Part shown: positions 2,154 to 10,961 of the stretch, in pieces
Layout: the number at the start of each line of letters is the position of its first letter
Numbering within the stretch: position 1 is the stretch's first letter
From: Longimicrobium sp.
GTDB taxonomy: Bacteria; Gemmatimonadota; Gemmatimonadetes; Longimicrobiales; Longimicrobiaceae
Direction: 5' to 3'
Length of the DNA: 13,609 nucleotides
Assembly (NCBI GenBank): GCA_030446945.1
Contig: JAUJMI010000047.1
Coordinates: 1-13,609, forward strand
Position numbers and translations under genes: made by a program
Notes under the pieces: generated by a model
Databases searched by the model: none
Told to the model about the DNA's origin: nothing
Seen by the model: the letters and a program-made list of their open reading frames with translations, nothing else

Positions 2154-2320
2154 CCCCGTCTCTCCGCAAGTTTGTGGCGCAACGCAGTCTTCTTACCGGA
2201 ACAGCAACACTCGCTCCACCGACGATGTAGATCGCCCCGCGTTCGTCCGTTCGCAGATGGAGGATGTGGAGCACAGCGAGCCGTGCCCCCGCGCGCAGCA
2301 CAGCCGGCGAGTAGGTGCGG

Positions 2321-2714
2321 CTACCTGCCGTTCGCCAGGAGATGGCGGCGCACGAGATCCGGGAGGGCGCGGATGCTGAACGGCTTCTGGAGGAACCCGT
2401 CGGCCCCTGCCCCGCCCCAGTGCACGTCGCGCTCGTCCGCGCAGGAGACGAGGATCACCGGCACTTCGCGCAGACCCTGGTCCATCTTGATCACTTTGCA
2501 GGCGTCGCGGCCGTCCAGGTCCGGCATCATCACGTCCAGCAGGATGAGGTCCGGACGCTCCTTGCGGGCGAGCGACACCGCCTCGGCGCCGCCCTGCGCC
2601 TGCACCACCGTGAAGCCGGCGTAGCGCAGCATCTCGGCCACGAGCGCGGTGATGGCGGGCTCGTCGTCCGCCACCAGGATGCGGGGGGGGCTGCGCCACG
2701 CCTTCGCCGGTCAT
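2321..2714 (-). CDS. single-domain response regulator (CheY-like receiver), frame broken at a poly-C tract
   Basis: The uninterrupted frame runs from a GTG at 2674 to TAG at 2321 (117 residues). It contains a complete receiver domain: acidic pair Asp3-Asp4, phosphoacceptor Asp47 in LILLDVMMPDLDG, the switch Ser77 in ILVSCADE and the conserved Lys97 in FLQKPFS. No output domain follows, so it probably acts by protein contact or as a phosphorelay intermediate. The likely true start is the ATG at 2714, whose ATGA overlaps the stop codon of the KaiC-like gene. That start gives MTGEGVAQPP and would join RILVADDEP if the run of eight C (2683-2690 on the plus strand it reads as G) were seven. As written, the ATG frame is shifted and only the GTG is usable. 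The order kinase, KaiC-like ATPase, receiver on one strand suggests the two kinases signal through this protein. Confidence 0.85.
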
Positions 2715-4183
2715 CCGTGGTGGGCCACGCCGAGCAGGGCGGTGTTCGCCCTGGAGAAGGCCTTCCCCACGGAGAGCCCCTTGTCCGTGATGATGAACTC
2801 GCGCAGCGAGTGGTCGTGCATGCGCGCCCGCATCTTGAGGACGACGATCAGGCGCTTCATCTCCCCCTTCTGCTCCGCGTAGCGCAGGTGCACCGCGTTG
2901 TCCATGACGGCCGAGAGCTCGGGCATCGGCATGTCGAAGCTCTCCCCCGCCACCCGCTGCAGGTCGTGCATCATGATGGTGGTGACGCCCCGCTCGCGCA
3001 GGAGGTTGGCGAGCGCGGTGATGACGAACAGCTCGCGCTCGCGCGGGATGACGGCGTGGCGCAGGTCCTCCAGCCCGTCGATGACCACCCGCTGGATCTT
3101 GTGCTCGTCGATGAGCGCCAGGAGCCGCTCGATCTCCAGGTCCACCAGCAGCTCCGTGGGAGCCTTCCAGTAGATGTGGAGCATACCGTCCTCCACCGCC
3201 CGGCGCAGGGGGAACCCAACGCCCTCCCCCTTTTGCACGACGGCCTCGGGCGTCTCGTGGTAGCCGATGAAGAGCCCGGGCTCGCCGGCCGTCACCCCTT
3301 TGCAGGAAGGCCAGCCCGGAGATCGTCTTGCCCGAGCCGGGGGTGCCGACCACCAGCGTGGTCGTCTTCCTGTCGGGGCCGCCGCCCAGCATCTCCTCCA
3401 GCCCCTCGATCCCCGCCCGCAGCGGCTCGTCCGGGGGCGGCGGGGGAGCGGCGTTCACCACGTGCGTCTCCATGTGCGCCGTGAGCGACTCGACGCGCGG
3501 GTAGATGTGGATCCCCTGCGGCGTGATCCGGAAGGTGTGCCACCCGCCGATGTGGTCGACACCCCGCAGTTTGGCCACGGCGAAGAACCTGACCTGCCGC
3601 CAGCGCACCTCCTGGCTGTCCATCTCCAGAATGGCGTCCGCGATGGTGAAGGTGGGGTCGGAGGCGATCCCGCCCTCGGGGGGGTGCGCCAGGAGGAGGG
3701 TGGTCATTCCCGCCACCCCGGCCTGCGCCTCCATCTCGTGCATGAACTGCTGGTATTCCATGCGCCCCTCCGCGGCTGCCTTGAGGGCGTGGATCCCGTC
3801 CAGGATCACCAGCGCGGGTGCGTGGTGCGCAACCAGGCGCCCGACCTCCTCGCGCGCGGCGGCCAGCCCGCCGCGCGCGAGCGCCGGGTAGAGGCTGGCA
3901 TAGTAGAACGAGCCCGGGACGGAGGTCCGGTCGAAGAAGGCGAAGGAGCGCGCCTGCGAGATCAGCGTCGGTGCGTCTCCACCAGCGCGGTGAGGTAGAG
4001 GACCTTGCCGCCCGCGCGGATCAGGTTGGCGCCGATCTGGTGGGCGAGCACGCTCTTCCCGGCGCCGGGCCCGCCCAGCACCACGTGCAGCCCGCCTTCG
4101 CGCAGCCCCCCGGCTAGGAGACGGTCCAGCCCGGGCACCCCGGTGGGCACCTGTGTCGTCCTCGCTCTCTGCGGTCCGTCCAT
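2711..4183 (-). pseudogene. KaiC-like (RecA-superfamily) two-domain ATPase, split by two frame breaks
   Basis: ATG at 4183 follows a clear Shine-Dalgarno sequence (GAGGAG). Three frames together give about 490 residues, the normal size for a double-domain KaiC. Domain 1 has GVPGLDRLLAGGL, Walker A GGPGAGKS (residues 37-44) and, after the first frame change near 3965-3972, Walker B LVILDGIHAL. Domain 2 has GIEGLEEMLGGG and Walker A GTPGSGKT; then, after the second frame change at the CAAAGGGG run near 3296-3303, IGYHETPEA and Walker B VVIDGLEDL, ending in TGA at 2711. KaiC family ATPases form hexameric rings and outside cyanobacteria are usually linked to signalling; no kaiA or kaiB is visible. 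The first glutamate of the usual Glu-Glu pair after Walker A appears replaced in both domains (Val, His). The kinase lies 37 bases upstream and the receiver overlaps by ATGA, so one operon is likely. Each frame break is repairable by one or two bases, so the gene may be intact in the organism. Confidence 0.85.
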
Positions 4184-4220
4184 TCCGTCTCCTCTCCGGT
4201 GAACCGCTCCGCGCGTGCCC

Positions 4221-5675
4221 TCAGGGCGCGCCGCGCTCCGTCTTCAGCTCCACCTCGAACACGCTCCCCCGCCCCGGCTCGCTACGCGCGCGGATCTCGC
4301 CGCCCAGGATGGACACCAGGCGGCGGCTGATCCCCAGCCCGAGTCCCGTGCCCGGCGTGCGCTTCATCCCGGGGCGGTCCGCCTGCCAGAACGGCTCCCA
4401 GATGCGCTCCAGCTCCTGCGCCGTCATTCCGCGCCCGGTGTCGCGCACCTCGAAGGTGGCGGAGCCGTCCGCGACGTGCAGCGTCAGGCGCACGGCGCCT
4501 CGGGTGGTGAATTTGACCGAGTTGCCCAGCAGGTTGAAGAGCACCTGGCGCAGCTTGTTGGCGTCGGTCGTCACGGTCGCCCCCGCCTCCGGCACCACGA
4601 CGGCGAACCCCAGCCCCTTCTGGCGCGCCAGCGGCTCGATCAGCGCCGCGGTTTCGCGCGCCAGCGCCGCCAGGTCGGTGGGCTCGGCTCTGACCTCGTC
4701 GCGCTCGGCTTCGATGCGCGAGAGGGTGAGGACCTGCTCCACCAGGTGCGTGAGGTGCTCCGAGGCGGCCAGGATGCGCTCCGCGTGCCCCCGCGGCACG
4801 TCCGGGACGGGCTGCGGGATCCCGCTCACCAGAAGCTCCGCGTAGGCCAGGATGGCCGTGAGCGGAGTGCGGAACTCGTGCGACATCGCCGCCAGGAACT
4901 CGGACTTCACCTCGCTGGCGCGCTGCACCTCGCGGTGGAGGCGCGCGTTCTCCACCGCCAGGGCGGCGCGGTCGGCCAGCTTGCGCGCCAGCCAGAGTGC
5001 GTCGGGCGTGTACTTCCCCGCCTCGTCCCATCCCAGGCTGAGCGCGCCCAGGATGCGCTCCCGGATGCGGAGCGGCACCACCAGCAGCGAGCGCGGCGCC
5101 ACCTCCCGCTCTTCCCCGGCGTCGGCGTCCGCGATCTCGGGGAGGAGCTCGGGGTCGCCCGTGCGCAGCGCCCGCGCCACGGGCGCGCTGACCGCATCCG
5201 GATCGAAGGGGCGGCTCGCCAGCACCGCGCGGAGGAGCTCCTCCTTCTCCGGATCCGCGTGCGCGGCGGCCAGGCGCTGCACCCCGCCTTCGTCGCCCAC
5301 CAGGTAGACGATGCAGGAGTCCGCCACGCGCGGCACGGTGAGCCGGGCCACGCTGGCGAGGGTGGTCTCGTAGTCCAGCGACCCGGCCAGGATCTCCCCC
5401 GCCTCGGCCAGGAACGCTTCCCGCTGCCGCGCCGCCTCCGCGTGCCTGCGCGCCGCCTGCTCCTCCAGCAGCGCGTGCGGCCCCCCGGCCATGCGCCGCA
5501 GCCCCGCGAGCACCGCCCGCATCTCCGCCAGCAGCGCGTCCGCCTCGGCGCGCGCATCCGCGGGGAGCATCTGCACGCGCCTCTCCAGCAGCTCCACGCG
5601 CCGCTCCGCGAGCCCGGCGTCGAAGCTTCCGGTCTCGTTCATCGGTGAAGGGGCGCCATTCGGGTCGTCGGCCAT
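4221..5675 (-). CDS. cytoplasmic GAF-domain sensor histidine kinase
   Basis: Intact 484-residue protein. An N-terminal charged helical stretch (about residues 20-90) is followed by a GAF-like sensor domain (about 90-245, with the strand VAPRSLLVVPLRIRERILG). The HisKA domain carries the H-box MSHEFRTPL, with His266 as the phosphorylated residue. The HATPase domain carries the N-box LLGNSVKFT (382-390), G1 DTGRGM (412-417), F-box WEPFWQ and G2 GTGLGLG (442-448). There is no signal peptide or membrane segment, so it senses a cytoplasmic signal; the ligand is unknown. The start at ATG 5675 has only a distant AGGA; Met12 (MNETGSFD) is an alternative. It is the first gene of the minus-strand signalling group, 37 bases ahead of the KaiC-like ATPase, with the single receiver protein after that as the probable phosphate acceptor. 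The broken kinase at the left edge is a paralogue. Confidence 0.93.
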   Translation of the reverse strand: MADDPNGAPSPMNETGSFDAGLAERRVELLERRVQMLPADARAEADALLAEMRAVLAGLRRMAGGPHALLEEQAARRHAEAARQREAFLAEAGEILAGSLDYETTLASVARLTVPRVADSCIVYLVGDEGGVQRLAAAHADPEKEELLRAVLASRPFDPDAVSAPVARALRTGDPELLPEIADADAGEEREVAPRSLLVVPLRIRERILGALSLGWDEAGKYTPDALWLARKLADRAALAVENARLHREVQRASEVKSEFLAAMSHEFRTPLTAILAYAELLVSGIPQPVPDVPRGHAERILAASEHLTHLVEQVLTLSRIEAERDEVRAEPTDLAALARETAALIEPLARQKGLGFAVVVPEAGATVTTDANKLRQVLFNLLGNSVKFTTRGAVRLTLHVADGSATFEVRDTGRGMTAQELERIWEPFWQADRPGMKRTPGTGLGLGISRRLVSILGGEIRARSEPGRGSVFEVELKTERGAP

Positions 5676-5995
5676 CGGGGCTGGTGGCGAGGGGTCCTCG
5701 CGCTACGTCGGCATGAAGCAGGCCCGGGGTGGAACAGCGGAACAGCCCTCGCACCGAGACACGGAGGAACGGAGAGGAAGGGGAGAACAGCGCAACGCTT
5801 CTAGTTGTTTACTCCCGCCGTTCCTCTGTGTCTCCGAACGAGACCCTCAGTCGCAGTTCGTGAATCGTGGGTTCAGGTGAACGGGACCGCCGTTTGCGTG
5901 GACCCGGGAGCGGCACGAAAGGGGGAACATCCCCCGCCCGCCTCGCATCCCGCCGGATGCCATCCGACTCCCGTTCCCACCTGACCGAGCTGCCG
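5676..5995. promoter_or_regulatory. divergent intergenic region between signalling operon and decarboxylase gene
   Basis: About 320 bases separate the start of the minus-strand kinase from the likely start of the plus-strand fusion enzyme, so promoters for both units should lie here. I could not pick -35/-10 boxes with confidence. The stretch 5795-5815 (TTCTAGTTGTTTACT) is less GC-rich than its surroundings. An imperfect inverted repeat occupies 5756-5834 and is listed separately. No protein-like frame is seen: frames crossing it give only arginine- and serine-rich noise. Confidence 0.5.
5756..5834. repeat. long imperfect inverted repeat (17-bp arms)
   Basis: The left arm GAGACACGGAGGAACGG (5756-5772) and right arm CCGTTCCTCTGTGTCTC (5818-5834) are reverse complements at 16 of 17 positions, with a 45-base spacer. 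Sequences of the type ACACAGAGGAACGG are familiar as dispersed extragenic repeats in many bacterial genomes, whose chance translation gives HRDTEE-like strings; that resemblance is from memory. It could form a hairpin in transcripts of either strand, or mark a small non-autonomous mobile repeat. Confidence 0.7.
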
Positions 5996-8269
5996 ATGGA
6001 CCAACGATCCCCCCAGGCGCTGACCTGTTACATAAGCGGCGTGCACAGCGGCCCGAATCCATCACCGGGGCTGGGCGTAGCGCGCTCGCTGCGGCAGGCC
6101 TTTCCGCACGCCCGGCTGGTCGCGGTGGACTACAGCGTGGAAAGCTCCGGTCTTCACAGCGAAGTGTTCGACGAGGTGTGGGTGCAGAGGCCGTGGAAGG
6201 AGATGCGGCTCTCCGTCTACCAGGACGCCATCCAGGCGGTGCTGGACGGCGGCGCGCTCTGGTTTCCGGGGCAGGACCTGGAGGTGGAGTGGATGGCCGG
6301 CGCACTTGCCGACCCCGCCCGTGCCATGCTCCCCGGCCTCCCTGCCCTGGAGCGGGTGGCCAAGCCCGCGATCTTCGCCGCGGAGGGGCTCCCCGTCTCG
6401 GTGCCGGAGTGGATCGGCGCGAACCGCTCGGACTGGGACCTGCACGCCTTCTGCCGAGAGCACGGCTGGCGGGTGTGGCTCAAAGGGCCCAACTACGAGG
6501 CGATGCGGGTGCGCGACTGGCCCTCCTTCCGCTACGGGCGCGACTTCCTCAGCGAGCTGTGGGGGACGGAGCAGCTCTTCGTGCAGCGCCACGTGGTGGG
6601 CGCCGAGGAGTCGGTGGCGTTCTGCGCCTACCGGGGGGAGATGCTGGACTGCGTGCACATGACCAAGCACACGCAGACGGTGGAGGGGAAAACGTGGGCG
6701 GGGGCGGTGAACGAGGTGGAGCCCGCCTTCGCCGAGGCGCTGCGCGCGCGAATCGCGGAGCTGAACTGGACGGGGGGCGGGGAGCTGGAGTACGTCCGCG
6801 CCCTCGACGGCACGCTGCACCTGATCGACTGGAACCCGCGCTTCCCCGCCTGGATCCACGCGGCGTCGTTCGCGGGGCACAACCTCCCCGCCCTGCTGGT
6901 GGAGGCGGCCGGGATGGGGAGGCCCGAGCCGTGCTCGTACCAGACGAACCAGTTCACCCGCATCGTGCTGGAGGTTCCCGTCCGCGGCACGCACCCGCTG
7001 CCGGCGGTGCGGCAGGCGAACGACCACTCCGGCGTCGGCTCCAAGCACCCCTCGGGGATGACGGAGCTTTCGCGCCGCCTGCGGGAGAACCGCCCGCGCG
7101 GGGACGAGCCCGTACGCCCCGGCCCCGTGGTGGTGCCCGCGATGGAGCGCGACCTGGAGGAGGTGGCGGGGAACGGCGCCTCCACCCCGCGGCGCATGTT
7201 CCTTCCGCGCACCTCGCGCGAGCGCTTCGCGCGGGTGGAGGCGGTGCTCGCCGCGCAGCCCGCGAGCGCGGTGGAGGTGGGGTTCGGCTACAGCGTGAAG
7301 ACCAACCCGCATCCCACCCTGCTGGCGCTGGCGGACCAGGCCGGGATGTTCGCGGAGGTGATCAGCTCGGCGGAGATGCGCCGCGCGCTGGAGTTCGGCT
7401 TCCCGCCCGAGCGCATCATCATGAACGGCCCCGCGTCGCAATGGCCGGAGGGCCCGGGCGCGGACGGCCCCCTGATGGCGGCGTTCGCGGACTCGCCGCA
7501 GGCGTTCGAGCGCTGGATGTGCCACGGGCCGCCGGAGGCGCGCTACCTGGGGATCCGGCTGCGCCCGGTGACGTTTGAGTCGCGCTTCGGCAGCGGGCTG
7601 GGGAGCGTCGAGCGCTTCGCCCACATCGTGAAGCTGCTCAGGGCCATGCCGCAGGAGCAGGAGATGGGGCTGCACTTCCACTTCGCCAGCGACGTGCTGG
7701 GGCCGGCGCGCTGGAGGGAGGTGTTCGAGGGGGTGGTGCACTGGGCATCGGCCATCGAGCAGAGCGTTGGGCGCGGGGTGCGCTGCCTGGACATGGGCGG
7801 CGGCTACTTCCCCGACGACTTCGATCGCGAGCTCCTCCCCCGCATCGGCGCCATGACCTCCGCCGCGTCGGTGATGCTGCCGGAGCTGGAGCGCTTCTTC
7901 TTGGAGCCGGGGAAGGCGATGGCGCAGCCCTCCATGGCGCTCGCCACCACCGTGCTGGAGGTGCGGCGCGGGAGCGACGGCACCGTCGAGGCCGTGGTCG
8001 ACGCCGCCATCTCCGACTTGCCCATGGCGCCGTTTTACCCGCACCGGGTCTACCGGCGCAGGCGGCAGGGGGAGTGGGAGGGGGTCGGCGGCGGCTCCGA
8101 CCGGCTGGTGGGGCGGATCTGCATGGAGACCGACATCCTGGCGAGCGACCTGAAGCTCCCCGAGGAGCTCAGGGCGGGCGACCGGCTGGTGATCGGCGAC
8201 GCGGGCGCGTACGACGCCAGCATGGCTTACAACTTCGGACGGGGGTTGCTGGAAGATGCGTGCTGCTGA
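5996..8269 (+). CDS. ATP-grasp domain fused to fold-type III PLP-dependent decarboxylase
   Basis: The protein is 757 residues from ATG 5996 (MDQRSPQALTCYISG); the ATG at 5957 is an alternative, and no start has a clear Shine-Dalgarno sequence. The N-terminal half (about 5-320) is ATP-grasp-like: VWLKGPNY with a candidate ATP-binding Lys, LFVQRHVVGAEESVAF, and the metal-binding motif LIDWNPRFP near residues 276-284. A linker (about 330-400) leads to an ornithine/diaminopimelate-type decarboxylase barrel. This has the PLP lysine in GYSVKTNP (Lys435), LHFHFASDV (558-566) in place of the usual HxGS strand, the glycine loop LDMGGGYF (598-605), EPGK (637-640), and the C-terminal CMETD (Cys709, Asp713) and GDAGAYDASM that complete the active site across the dimer. 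Both halves look catalytically complete. Expected chemistry is ATP-driven activation or ligation of an acid plus alpha-decarboxylation of an amino acid; the substrate is unknown. The next gene overlaps it by 14 bases. Butirosin BtrJ and BtrK are a functional analogy only. Confidence 0.88.
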   Translation: MDQRSPQALTCYISGVHSGPNPSPGLGVARSLRQAFPHARLVAVDYSVESSGLHSEVFDEVWVQRPWKEMRLSVYQDAIQAVLDGGALWFPGQDLEVEWMAGALADPARAMLPGLPALERVAKPAIFAAEGLPVSVPEWIGANRSDWDLHAFCREHGWRVWLKGPNYEAMRVRDWPSFRYGRDFLSELWGTEQLFVQRHVVGAEESVAFCAYRGEMLDCVHMTKHTQTVEGKTWAGAVNEVEPAFAEALRARIAELNWTGGGELEYVRALDGTLHLIDWNPRFPAWIHAASFAGHNLPALLVEAAGMGRPEPCSYQTNQFTRIVLEVPVRGTHPLPAVRQANDHSGVGSKHPSGMTELSRRLRENRPRGDEPVRPGPVVVPAMERDLEEVAGNGASTPRRMFLPRTSRERFARVEAVLAAQPASAVEVGFGYSVKTNPHPTLLALADQAGMFAEVISSAEMRRALEFGFPPERIIMNGPASQWPEGPGADGPLMAAFADSPQAFERWMCHGPPEARYLGIRLRPVTFESRFGSGLGSVERFAHIVKLLRAMPQEQEMGLHFHFASDVLGPARWREVFEGVVHWASAIEQSVGRGVRCLDMGGGYFPDDFDRELLPRIGAMTSAASVMLPELERFFLEPGKAMAQPSMALATTVLEVRRGSDGTVEAVVDAAISDLPMAPFYPHRVYRRRRQGEWEGVGGGSDRLVGRICMETDILASDLKLPEELRAGDRLVIGDAGAYDASMAYNFGRGLLEDACC

Positions 8270-8864
8270 GCCGACCGTGGAGTCGGCCCCCTGGGCCGAG
8301 TTCGTCCCCTCCGTACTCTCCGACCACGGAACCGAGTGCTGCACCACGGCGCGCGCCTGGTACACGGCGATGGACCGCTCCATGTGGCGCGGCGAGGGCG
8401 GCCCCGCCTGGATCTCGCGCAAGTTCCCCTGGGGCCCCAACAAGTGGCCGCTCTTCTGGTGCGAGGCGATGGAGGCGGAGGAGCTGGACTGCGGCGCGCA
8501 CCAGGCGCTGAGCATGGAGGCGTTCCGGGCGCGCGGCATCCGCGTGGTGCCGGTGCAGCTCGTGCAGCGCCAGGAGGTGCACCACCTTCCGCACTGGCAC
8601 GGCCGCTGGGGCGACGCCAGCGCTTCGCCGGCCTGGGCGCGCGAGGGGGTGGCCTATCACGAGGCGTGCGCCACCATCCAGGACGGCCGCGCGGAGGTAT
8701 GGGACGCGACGGTGGCGGCCTGGCTCTCGCCTCGCCACCTGGAGGGGGTGCGCAGCATCGCCGCGGTGCGCATCGGCGGGCCCGCCGTGTCGGACGACAC
8801 GGTGGATTGGCGGGGGGTACGGCTGCGGCTGGGCGCGTGGGCGTCGCTGGAGGCGGGAGGGTGA
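8256..8864 (+). CDS. putative transglutaminase-like cysteine enzyme
   Basis: A 202-residue protein whose ATG overlaps the end of the decarboxylase gene by 14 bases, so the two are almost certainly co-translated. A possible catalytic triad is visible in transglutaminase/papain-like order: Cys79 in ELDCGAHQAL at the start of a helix, followed by the strand GIRVVPVQLVQ; His135 in AYHEACA; and Asp150 in VWDATVAAW. The N-terminal part has a PAWISRKFPWGPNKW segment rich in Trp and Pro. There is no signal peptide or membrane segment, so it acts in the cytoplasm. Enzymes of this fold can be proteases, amidases or acyltransferases. Next to an ATP-grasp/decarboxylase fusion, an acyl- or aminoacyl-transfer or amide-cleaving step is a reasonable inference. 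Family assignment is by pattern only, without a search; the gene is intact and ends at TGA 8864, just before a palindrome-rich spacer. Confidence 0.75.
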   Translation: MRAAEPTVESAPWAEFVPSVLSDHGTECCTTARAWYTAMDRSMWRGEGGPAWISRKFPWGPNKWPLFWCEAMEAEELDCGAHQALSMEAFRARGIRVVPVQLVQRQEVHHLPHWHGRWGDASASPAWAREGVAYHEACATIQDGRAEVWDATVAAWLSPRHLEGVRSIAAVRIGGPAVSDDTVDWRGVRLRLGAWASLEAGG

Positions 8865-9509: not shown

Positions 9510-10676
9510 TCAGGCGGCCGTGCGCAGAGGCTCGCCGATTGATTCCTTCCGGACCTGCTGCTGTGCTTCGGCGTTCAGATCGACTTCGCGCATCACGGCC
9601 CAGATGAAGCCGACCAGTTCCCGGGCCACCGCTACCACCGCGATGTTACTCCCGCGGCGAGCCGAGATCCGCTTCCACACCTTGTGGAGCCGGTGCTGGG
9701 CTTTCCACGAGTGTGCCACGAGCGACGCGGAGGCCCCCTGCTGCCGCCGTTTCAGCGCCGCCCCGACCGTGGGTACTCGGCAGTAGCTCCAGGCCGCCTG
9801 GACCAGCACGTGCCGGCAGTGGCTGTTCCCCGCTTTCGTGATGCTGCCCCGCCGGTGCCGCTCCCCCGAGGAGTCCTCACGCGGGATCAGGCCCAGGTAG
9901 CTCATCAGCGCCTCGGGCTTGCCAAAGCGGCGGAAATCCCCGATCTCGCTCGCCAGCACCATCGCCGCGTGCGTGTCGAGCCCGCGGAAGCACTTCAGCG
10001 CCGCCACTCGCTCCTGGTAGTACGGCTTAAGCGCCTGATCCTCGATCCACCGGTCCAGCTCGTCGCGCCGGCCGATCTTGTACTCCAGCAGCCCGATGTA
10101 CTCCGAGAGCACCAGGTGGTCCTCCGCCGGGAGGGCGCCCGGGCACAGAAGCGCGCGCAGCCACTCCCAGTGCCGCTTCGTCCAGTTATGCTTCCCCTCG
10201 CGGTATACCAGGCCGCGGCGGGCCAGGAACTTCAGGATACTGTGCCGCGTCTGCAGGATCTCCTTCTGGAATCGCGCGCGGCAGCGGACCACGTCGCGCA
10301 CCCGCTCCTCCGCCTCGCTCGGCACCCGCACCGGGACCAGCTGCCCCGCACGGTAGAGCCGGCCCAGCTCGCTCGCGTCGTACCGATCGTGCTTGCGATG
10401 CTTCCCGGGGCGCTGCGGAATGAGCGACGGCGCGATCACTTCGCAGGCGTATCCCCACTCCCTCATCGCCCGCTCGATCACGAACCCCGCTCCGCTCGCC
10501 TCGTAGCAGGCGCGGATCTCACCCTGCTCCGCCTGGCGCGCCAGGAAGCGCCGCAGCTTCACGGGGTCGTTGGGCAGGCGCGTGACCTCCTTGGGCTTCT
10601 CCGCAGCACCCACGTACACCGCGATCGTGATGGAGTCCTTGTGTACATCCATCCCAAGCCAGATTATCTCACGCAT
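9510..10676 (-). mobile_element. IS110-family transposase
   Basis: An intact 388-residue transposase (recombinase). The start at ATG 10676 (MREIIWLGMDVHKDS) is chosen because AGGAG lies about 9 bases upstream; the open frame extends to a GTG at 10739. The N-terminal RuvC-like DEDD domain shows Asp10 (GMDVHK), Glu59 (CYEAS) and Asp97/Asp100 (KHDRYDASELGRL). A helical middle part follows (about 120-225). The C-terminal Transposase_20-type domain shows LKCFRGLDTHAAMVLASEIG (about 227-246), FGKPEALMSYLGLIP and SSGERHRRGSITKAGNSHCR (about 269-288), where the conserved serine region lies. Family knowledge: IS110 elements move through a circular intermediate without terminal inverted repeats, guided by a structured bridge RNA encoded in the element's non-coding end. 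All key residues are present, so it may be active. It is inserted between the decarboxylase pair and the antiporter, on the opposite strand to both. Confidence 0.95.
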
Positions 10677-10961
10677 AGGGCTGGTCTCCTGTCCGAATGC
10701 GGCCTCAGCCGCATGTGGCTCTGATGCTCCTGCGTTCACACGAGGATCATTAATCCACGCGAAACCAGGGGGCCAGCCCTTCCATACATTCTACGACAGG
10801 TCCGCCGGCGCGAGCGTGCGAAGGCGGAATTATTGTGTTGTTGCTGCGAGTGGCCCTGTTTCCATCGTTGGCTCGGGTTGTGCTAAGTACCTGCCGTAAA
10901 CGTCCGTAGTTGCCTCCGGAATCCCCTGCCCCGGGGCGGCGCGGCGCCGTTCTCCGTGAGA
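10677..10961 (-). other. non-coding region upstream of the IS110 transposase (candidate bridge-RNA DNA) and antiporter leader
   Basis: About 285 bases without a supported gene. The part nearest the transposase start holds a perfect hairpin (10697-10714) and, at 10741-10800, a segment less GC-rich than its surroundings. In the IS110 group the bridge RNA is encoded upstream of the recombinase, so it would be expected between the element's left end and 10676. I cannot place the element boundary or fold the RNA reliably by eye. The rightmost part (about 10850-10961) must contain the promoter of the antiporter gene. Confidence 0.4.
10697..10714 (-). repeat. hairpin just upstream of the transposase ribosome binding site
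   Basis: On the minus strand it reads ATGCGGC-TGAG-GCCGCAT, a perfect 7-bp stem with a four-base loop, about 9 bases before the AGGAG that precedes the transposase ATG. It could limit transposase translation or be part of the structured non-coding RNA of the element. Confidence 0.6.

Follow-up and report, generated by a model that had tools for sequence, protein, structure and literature searches.

An apparently undescribed bacterial gene module joining an ATP-grasp/decarboxylase fusion to a predicted transglutaminase-like partner

A contig of 13,609 nucleotides from Longimicrobium sp. (Gemmatimonadota; assembly GCA_030446945.1, contig JAUJMI010000047.1), analyzed over its whole length and hereafter called the window, carries two overlapping genes on its forward strand. 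The first encodes an ATP-grasp domain fused to a pyridoxal 5'-phosphate (PLP)-dependent decarboxylase (positions 5996 to 8269). The second (8256 to 8864) encodes a smaller protein, the partner, which looks transglutaminase-like by its predicted fold. The fusion and the partner form a real, conserved, and unnamed module. The set of ligase, decarboxylase, and partner is apparently an undescribed module of two or three neighboring genes found in several bacterial phyla, and no published account of the fusion-partner pair was found in a literature search that left most subscription papers outside it. The module is most likely biosynthetic, with known kinds of enzymes in a new arrangement. The source genome of the window comprises 3.7 Mb in 526 contigs and is 86% complete.

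The fusion gene reads 757 residues plus a stop codon. Its N-terminal half, the ATP-grasp domain (residues 1 to 345, positions 5996 to 7030), is followed by a linker (residues 346 to 377, positions 7031 to 7126) and by an alanine racemase-fold (AR-fold) PLP decarboxylase (residues 378 to 757 and the stop, positions 7127 to 8269). A first-pass annotation of the window had reported the length of the fusion, its key motifs, and a 14-base overlap with the partner gene, all of which were verified: DWNPR lies at residues 278 to 282, YSVKTNP contains Lys435, and GGG (601 to 603), EPGK (637 to 640), and CMETD (709 to 713, the CxxxD loop) follow. Two earlier starts, a GTG at 5867 and an ATG at 5957, would each give a longer protein; the ATG is a plausible start, since the homolog P0003, with 770 amino acids, fits that length. 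The AlphaFold model of the fusion has a mean predicted local distance difference test score (pLDDT) of 87.6, with partly low confidence around the linker (below 50 at residues 343 to 349 and 367 to 369), and the match lists of whole-fusion fold searches were filled by decarboxylases.

The search for homologs, in which 8,000 candidates from a public protein collection clustered at 90% identity were scored, gave at least 985 relatives of the fusion. All 120 of those listed carry the PF02784 decarboxylase domain and 118 of them measure 697 to 830 amino acids. With so many relatives, those listed being almost all of fusion length, the fusion is no assembly accident. The possibility left by the first-pass annotation that the two halves are normally encoded apart found no instance, as no split pair was seen, in a homolog search whose length limits make it blind to stand-alone halves. 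Weaker matches among the 21 genomes of the window's family cover the decarboxylase half only, or a short ATP-grasp stretch, at 25 to 41% identity, and are taken to be LysA and other ATP-grasp proteins rather than split fusions.

The N-terminal half can be placed in the ATP-grasp superfamily from a profile match, two putative ATP lysines, and a putative acidic/Asn metal site. The profile PF15632 (ATPgrasp_Ter) matched all 17 aligned N-terminal halves at E ≤ 0.01, that of the window included. The window protein itself scored 22.6 bits (24.5 for the N-terminal half alone), below the cut-off of 29.1, and by profile this half also resembled, weakly, a biotin-dependent carboxylase subunit (E = 5e-4). 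Lys123, Lys163, Glu263, Glu265, Asn280, and Arg282 are invariant in all 55 aligned rows, including the window, and position 278 is Asp in 37 rows and Glu in 18. We assume that these residues play the roles known from ATP-grasp enzymes, with two lysines contacting ATP and an acidic/Asn site binding metal.

The C-terminal half is an AR-fold (group IV) PLP decarboxylase by its fold, its PLP lysine, its GGG loop, its HxH motif, and the cysteine of the CxxxD loop. Both of its decarboxylase domains scored above the Pfam cut-off, and Lys435, His560, His562, Cys709, Met710, Glu711, and Asp713 do not vary in the 55 aligned rows. The presence of both domains in one chain, as originally annotated, is thus borne out by Pfam profiles and invariant residues. 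A fused variant of LysA, the diaminopimelate decarboxylase (DAPDC) of the lysine pathway, is one reading of such a protein: the Joint Genome Institute (JGI) source labels many of the listed homologs "diaminopimelate decarboxylase," the fusion scores 95.8 bits with the NCBIfam lysA model, and the decarboxylase half has no second match in the window's own genome, which is 86% complete. However, this score is far under the cut-off of 297.9 bits, and the fusion has neither the Glu that follows the catalytic Cys in LysA (Met710 instead) nor the helix Arg (position 677), so LysA identity was rejected. Moreover, in five of the seven fusion carriers of the window's family there is a separate match at 27 to 28% identity, taken to be LysA, and lysine synthesis is therefore probably outside the job of the fusion. 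We regard a role in the lysine pathway as highly improbable.

The loop that carries the catalytic cysteine may point to another kind of substrate. The residue after this cysteine is Met in all 55 fusion rows; in the printed alignments, three LysA chains have Glu at the same position, N-citrylornithine decarboxylase has Met, and BtrK of the butirosin pathway has Thr. In the LysA chain 2yxx, an Arg on the specificity helix, taken here for the carboxylate-binding Arg of the literature, aligns with fusion position 677, where 41 of the 55 rows have Met, 6 Leu, 5 Glu, and 3 Gln. A Cys-Met loop, as in N-citrylornithine decarboxylase and not the Cys-Glu of LysA, favors a conjugated or uncharged side chain, and these residues thus favor a conjugated amino acid as the putative substrate. 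The substrate of N-citrylornithine decarboxylase is an amino acid whose side chain is already conjugated (PMC7857480). This enzyme was also the best match when the family profile of the decarboxylase half was compared with solved structures (136 bits), ahead of four LysA chains (99 to 107 bits) and BtrK (96 bits). Against this reading, the nearest relative shifts with the query. It is N-citrylornithine decarboxylase for the family profile but LysA by the NCBIfam models and by the single Streptomyces copy, which scored 56 bits with LysA, 42 with BtrK, and 37 with N-citrylornithine decarboxylase. The NCBIfam FslC model reached 55.1 bits for a cut-off of 500, well short of membership. FigC/FslC, of rhizoferrin synthesis in Francisella, resembles the fusion half as an AR-fold PLP decarboxylase with a Cys-Met loop but is a stand-alone protein with 22% identity to it in the fold alignment, and its companion ligase is a nonribosomal peptide synthetase (NRPS)-independent siderophore (NIS) synthetase. 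No NIS synthetase was present among nine neighbor proteins run through Pfam, a scan that most neighbors were outside of.

The partner gene (8256 to 8864, forward strand) encodes 202 amino acids plus a stop, with no match in Pfam or NCBIfam. Its model has a pLDDT of 93.5 and shows a helix at residues 79 to 91 and strands at 132 to 142 and 145 to 150. Cys79 (8490 to 8492), at the start of the helix, is predicted to form a triad with His135 (8658 to 8660) and Asp150 (8703 to 8705), and all three residues are kept in 25 of 25 loci, the Streptomyces copy included. The earlier annotation of a Cys-His-Asp enzyme there is accordingly supported, with a transglutaminase-like model. The ten best Foldseek rows for the partner comprised isopeptidases, vasohibins, transglutaminases, and one hypothetical protease, and the VIA fold comparison added arylamine N-acetyltransferases and an amide synthase; lower rows of these comparisons include ciliary doublet, menin, and Rad4 chains. 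The arrangement of a Cys at a helix start, a His, and an Asp, as predicted for the partner, is shared with transglutaminases, the PeiP/PeiW isopeptidases, arylamine N-acetyltransferases, and the GdmF amide synthase. The partner has four invariant cysteines (28, 29, 69, and 79) and an invariant His24; as only Cys79 of the four fits the triad, a metal site or a disulfide is possible.

The overlap between the two genes is a conserved trait. Across 26 loci, using called starts, it measures 20 bases in 22 loci, 14 in two, 17 in one, and 4 in one. Genes were called by a simple scorer of open reading frames (ORFs) whose starts are rough and which missed the fusion of L013, found separately. Five loci (L003, L034, L035, L013, and L005) were excluded from the count, and an in-frame ATG in them would give overlaps of 17, 14, 14, 20, and 8 bases, respectively. 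In the Chloroflexi locus L005, the fusion (4158 to 6398) has an in-frame stop about 204 codons in, corresponding to an inactive copy or a sequence error.

Treating the two genes as one unit, as the first-pass annotation did, is also sustained by their co-occurrence in genomes, a check that the annotation itself had suggested. Within the window's family, the fusion and the partner are found in the same 7 of 21 genomes, and four congeners that are 96 to 98% complete have neither. In an acidobacterial family of 119 genomes, 17 carry the fusion (E ≤ 1e-60); the partner is present in 16 of these and in none of the other 102. The exception, G275, has a contig that ends 36 bases past the fusion on the partner's side. 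Among 249 sampled Gemmatimonadota genomes, with at most 12 first-look candidates scored per genome, the partner was found only in the window's own; the six other known Gemmatimonadota carriers were outside this draw and not among the matches. Partner distances correlate with those of each half of the fusion (r = 0.93 and 0.94 for 25 loci, none of 2,000 permutations being as high), a correlation that common descent by itself would yield. In a quick 28-row tree, the rows of Pseudomonadota, of Verrucomicrobiota, and of Gemmatimonadota each form a single group with strong support and those of Acidobacteriota form a weakly supported one. No recent transfer was seen between these four phyla in this tree, in which the long branches of Streptomyces and Chloroflexota are of unsure placement. 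A search of plasmids gave one full-length fusion, in Streptomyces zaomyceticus, with 34% identity to the Sphingomonas query; in the other eight records found with it the match begins only at residue 364. On this linear plasmid (L064, 19995 to 24428), the diverged fusion and partner overlap by 4 bases and are followed by a desaturase-like gene.

We tentatively propose, at slightly less than an even chance, that the module forms the heart of a short biosynthetic route, free of a carrier, that ligates, decarboxylates the conjugate, and then performs a cysteine-based acyl transfer or cleavage. The ATP-grasp half would phosphorylate a carboxylate and couple it to an amine, yielding an amino acid tied via its side chain with the alpha-amino and alpha-carboxyl groups left free. 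Since AR-fold decarboxylases require both of these groups to be free, the side chain is where a ligase would have to attach if it acts before the decarboxylase. The fused PLP half would then decarboxylate the conjugate, and the covalent link may pass the product between the two active sites. In the last step, Cys79-His135-Asp150 of the partner would take the acyl group from the (iso)amide and deliver it to an amine or water, which fits the conjugate route because transglutaminase-like enzymes act on side-chain amides. In some lineages, tailoring might be carried out by the third, unnamed family, a TauD-type oxygenase, a GCN5-related N-acetyltransferase (GNAT), or a desaturase-like protein. The product would probably be a small amide-type molecule.

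The order of the first two steps could be the reverse, with the PLP half making an amine from a free amino acid, the ATP-grasp half coupling this amine to an acid, and the partner trimming or exchanging the amide. The fusion would then hand the amine to the ligase, following the logic of E-64 biosynthesis. The E-64 cluster (Cp1A-D) is, like the module, a tiny NRPS-free set, with four genes for an Fe(II)/alpha-ketoglutarate oxygenase, an ATP-grasp enzyme, a PLP decarboxylase, and an amide-forming enzyme, the proposed role of its decarboxylase being the supply of polyamine building blocks (PMC12568646). Oxygenases of the TauD type lie near the pair in two Acidobacteria and one Sphingomonas, at 8656 to 9618 in L010 (by Pfam) and at 6987 to 7949 in L108 and 14392 to 15378 in L060 (both by similarity). 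Unlike the module, the E-64 cluster is fungal and consists of different proteins; an ANL-family amide bond synthetase takes the place of the transglutaminase-like partner, and the decarboxylase is dispensable in the heterologous host. Against this order of steps, lysine/ornithine decarboxylases, arginine decarboxylases, and DAPDC recognize a free side-chain amine with an acidic residue (PMC7857480), and every fusion row has Met at that position. We consider decarboxylation first rather unlikely.

The likeness to butirosin side-chain synthesis drawn in the first-pass annotation survives as shared logic and not as specific kinship. BtrJ is the ATP-grasp enzyme of the butirosin pathway. As proposed for the fusion, an ATP-grasp enzyme and an AR-fold decarboxylase work there on a conjugated amino acid, BtrK decarboxylating glutamate bound to a carrier protein (PMC7857480). 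However, BtrJ and BtrK are two proteins assisted by a carrier, while the fusion is a single chain near which no carrier gene turned up; with the family profile, N-citrylornithine decarboxylase and LysA both outscored BtrK; and no relation of the partner to any butirosin enzyme was demonstrated. The link of the module to butirosin would thus be one of logic only. A butirosin-like route with a carrier encoded elsewhere, in which a carrier charged with Glu or some other acid by the ATP-grasp half is the substrate for decarboxylation by the PLP half, and the partner transfers the acyl group, would use the same chemistries, and BtrK is in the matched family.

Flanking ORFs of at least 18 codons were compared in 27 loci, up to 900 bases on each side (less in L006, L109, and L005). 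Of the 31 ORF groups obtained, all 12 present in at least three loci fall inside called genes, and those outside called genes join two loci only, these being L034, L035, or the window, with one exception involving L008. There was thus no conserved carrier or precursor-peptide gene within up to 900 bases of the pair in these loci, in agreement with the lack of a visible carrier in the original annotation; whole genomes were not searched for carriers. The only small ORFs shared outside called genes are these two-locus groups, nearly all from near relatives, which argues against the carrier route, in our view quite unlikely. The same comparison bears on the idea that the set modifies a peptide, a protein, or a tRNA instead of making a free small molecule. 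Both the ATP-grasp and the transglutaminase-like superfamilies include peptide and protein modifiers, and several of the fold matches of the partner act on proteins, but no conserved precursor ORF of at least 18 codons was found beside the pair in these loci. This reading, too, is unlikely.

A third gene family, encoding about 210 to 270 residues, is found beside the pair in most Sphingomonas-type loci, in divergent orientation. In Acidobacteria it lies upstream of the pair, often in two copies, and in two Chthoniobacterales loci it lies downstream with a four-base overlap. Among 201 Sphingomonas genomes, it is present in exactly the four that have the partner, and all three genes are adjacent there. 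In the acidobacterial family, the third gene occurs in 15 of the 119 genomes, 14 of them fusion carriers, and the fifteenth (G587) has the first 88 fusion codons at a contig edge. The three fusion carriers without it are G275, G497, and G522: the fusion of G522 is cut by a contig end, the match of G497 begins at base 175 of its contig, and in G275 (locus L017) no third gene was found in 8.5 kb of upstream sequence. Overall, 16 of 29 genomes tested have the third gene; it was not found in seven Gemmatimonadota, two Chloroflexi, and four other carriers. One genome, G283, has long flanks around its pair (L025) and no third gene there or elsewhere, and G277 and G280 are also without it, their contigs stopping inside the fusion or shortly past it.

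The same clustered protein collection yielded 2,641 relatives of the third protein. None of 15 members examined gave a Pfam match, and the 120 relatives listed carry no Pfam label. His126, Asp128, His176, and Arg189 are invariant in 15 rows, and this His-x-Asp...His...Arg pattern recalls the motif of 2-oxoglutarate oxygenases, making the protein oxygenase-like by motif only. The family profile gave no significant match to sets derived from PF05118 and PF05721, and its best PDB match had an E value of 0.3. Aspartyl hydroxylase and phytanoyl hydroxylase were both rejected as identities, with profile comparison probabilities of 0.2% and 0.1%, respectively, for a shallow third-family alignment and reference sets of 12 ORFs each with unchecked starts.

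Taken further, the module might define an undescribed class of small amides spanning at least six phyla, with side-chain ligation then decarboxylation in one chain, a new transglutaminase-like acyltransferase family, and a carrier-free counterpart of butirosin synthesis; we see this as possible but doubtful. The set is common yet unnamed: where a source labels the listed relatives at all, the labels are "diaminopimelate decarboxylase," "ATP-grasp domain-containing," or "hypothetical," and Pfam searches turned up no family for two of the three proteins. Understanding the module would also set a misleading database name right. The fusion allows a direct question, whether a ligase passes its conjugate to a decarboxylase within one chain, and Sphingomonas carriers, such as S. 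xinjiangensis DSM 26736, are strains where the product could be sought.

Other neighbors of the pair vary. In L006, L008, L014, L020, and L060, the first gene called beyond the partner encodes a small GNAT acetyltransferase (supported by Pfam for two), on the same strand as the partner in L008 and L060. Regulator genes of the groups that include the window's histidine kinase and response regulator also turn up beside the pair in several loci; they are uninformative, because such genes are very common. In the window, a GAF-histidine kinase gene (4221 to 5675) lies upstream of the fusion and reads away from it. Downstream, an IS110-family transposase gene (9510 to 10739, reverse strand) stands between the partner and a gene for an antiporter with Usp domains. 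Since no called gene separates the partner from the antiporter in L034 and L035, which are of the same genus as the window, the IS110 element looks like an insertion private to the window's genome. On the reverse strand of the window, positions 2193 to 3809 hold overlapping ORF pieces where L002, L034, and L035 have a single ORF of 480 to 494 amino acids (family c8) near the kinase, and the window's copy of this gene may be broken.

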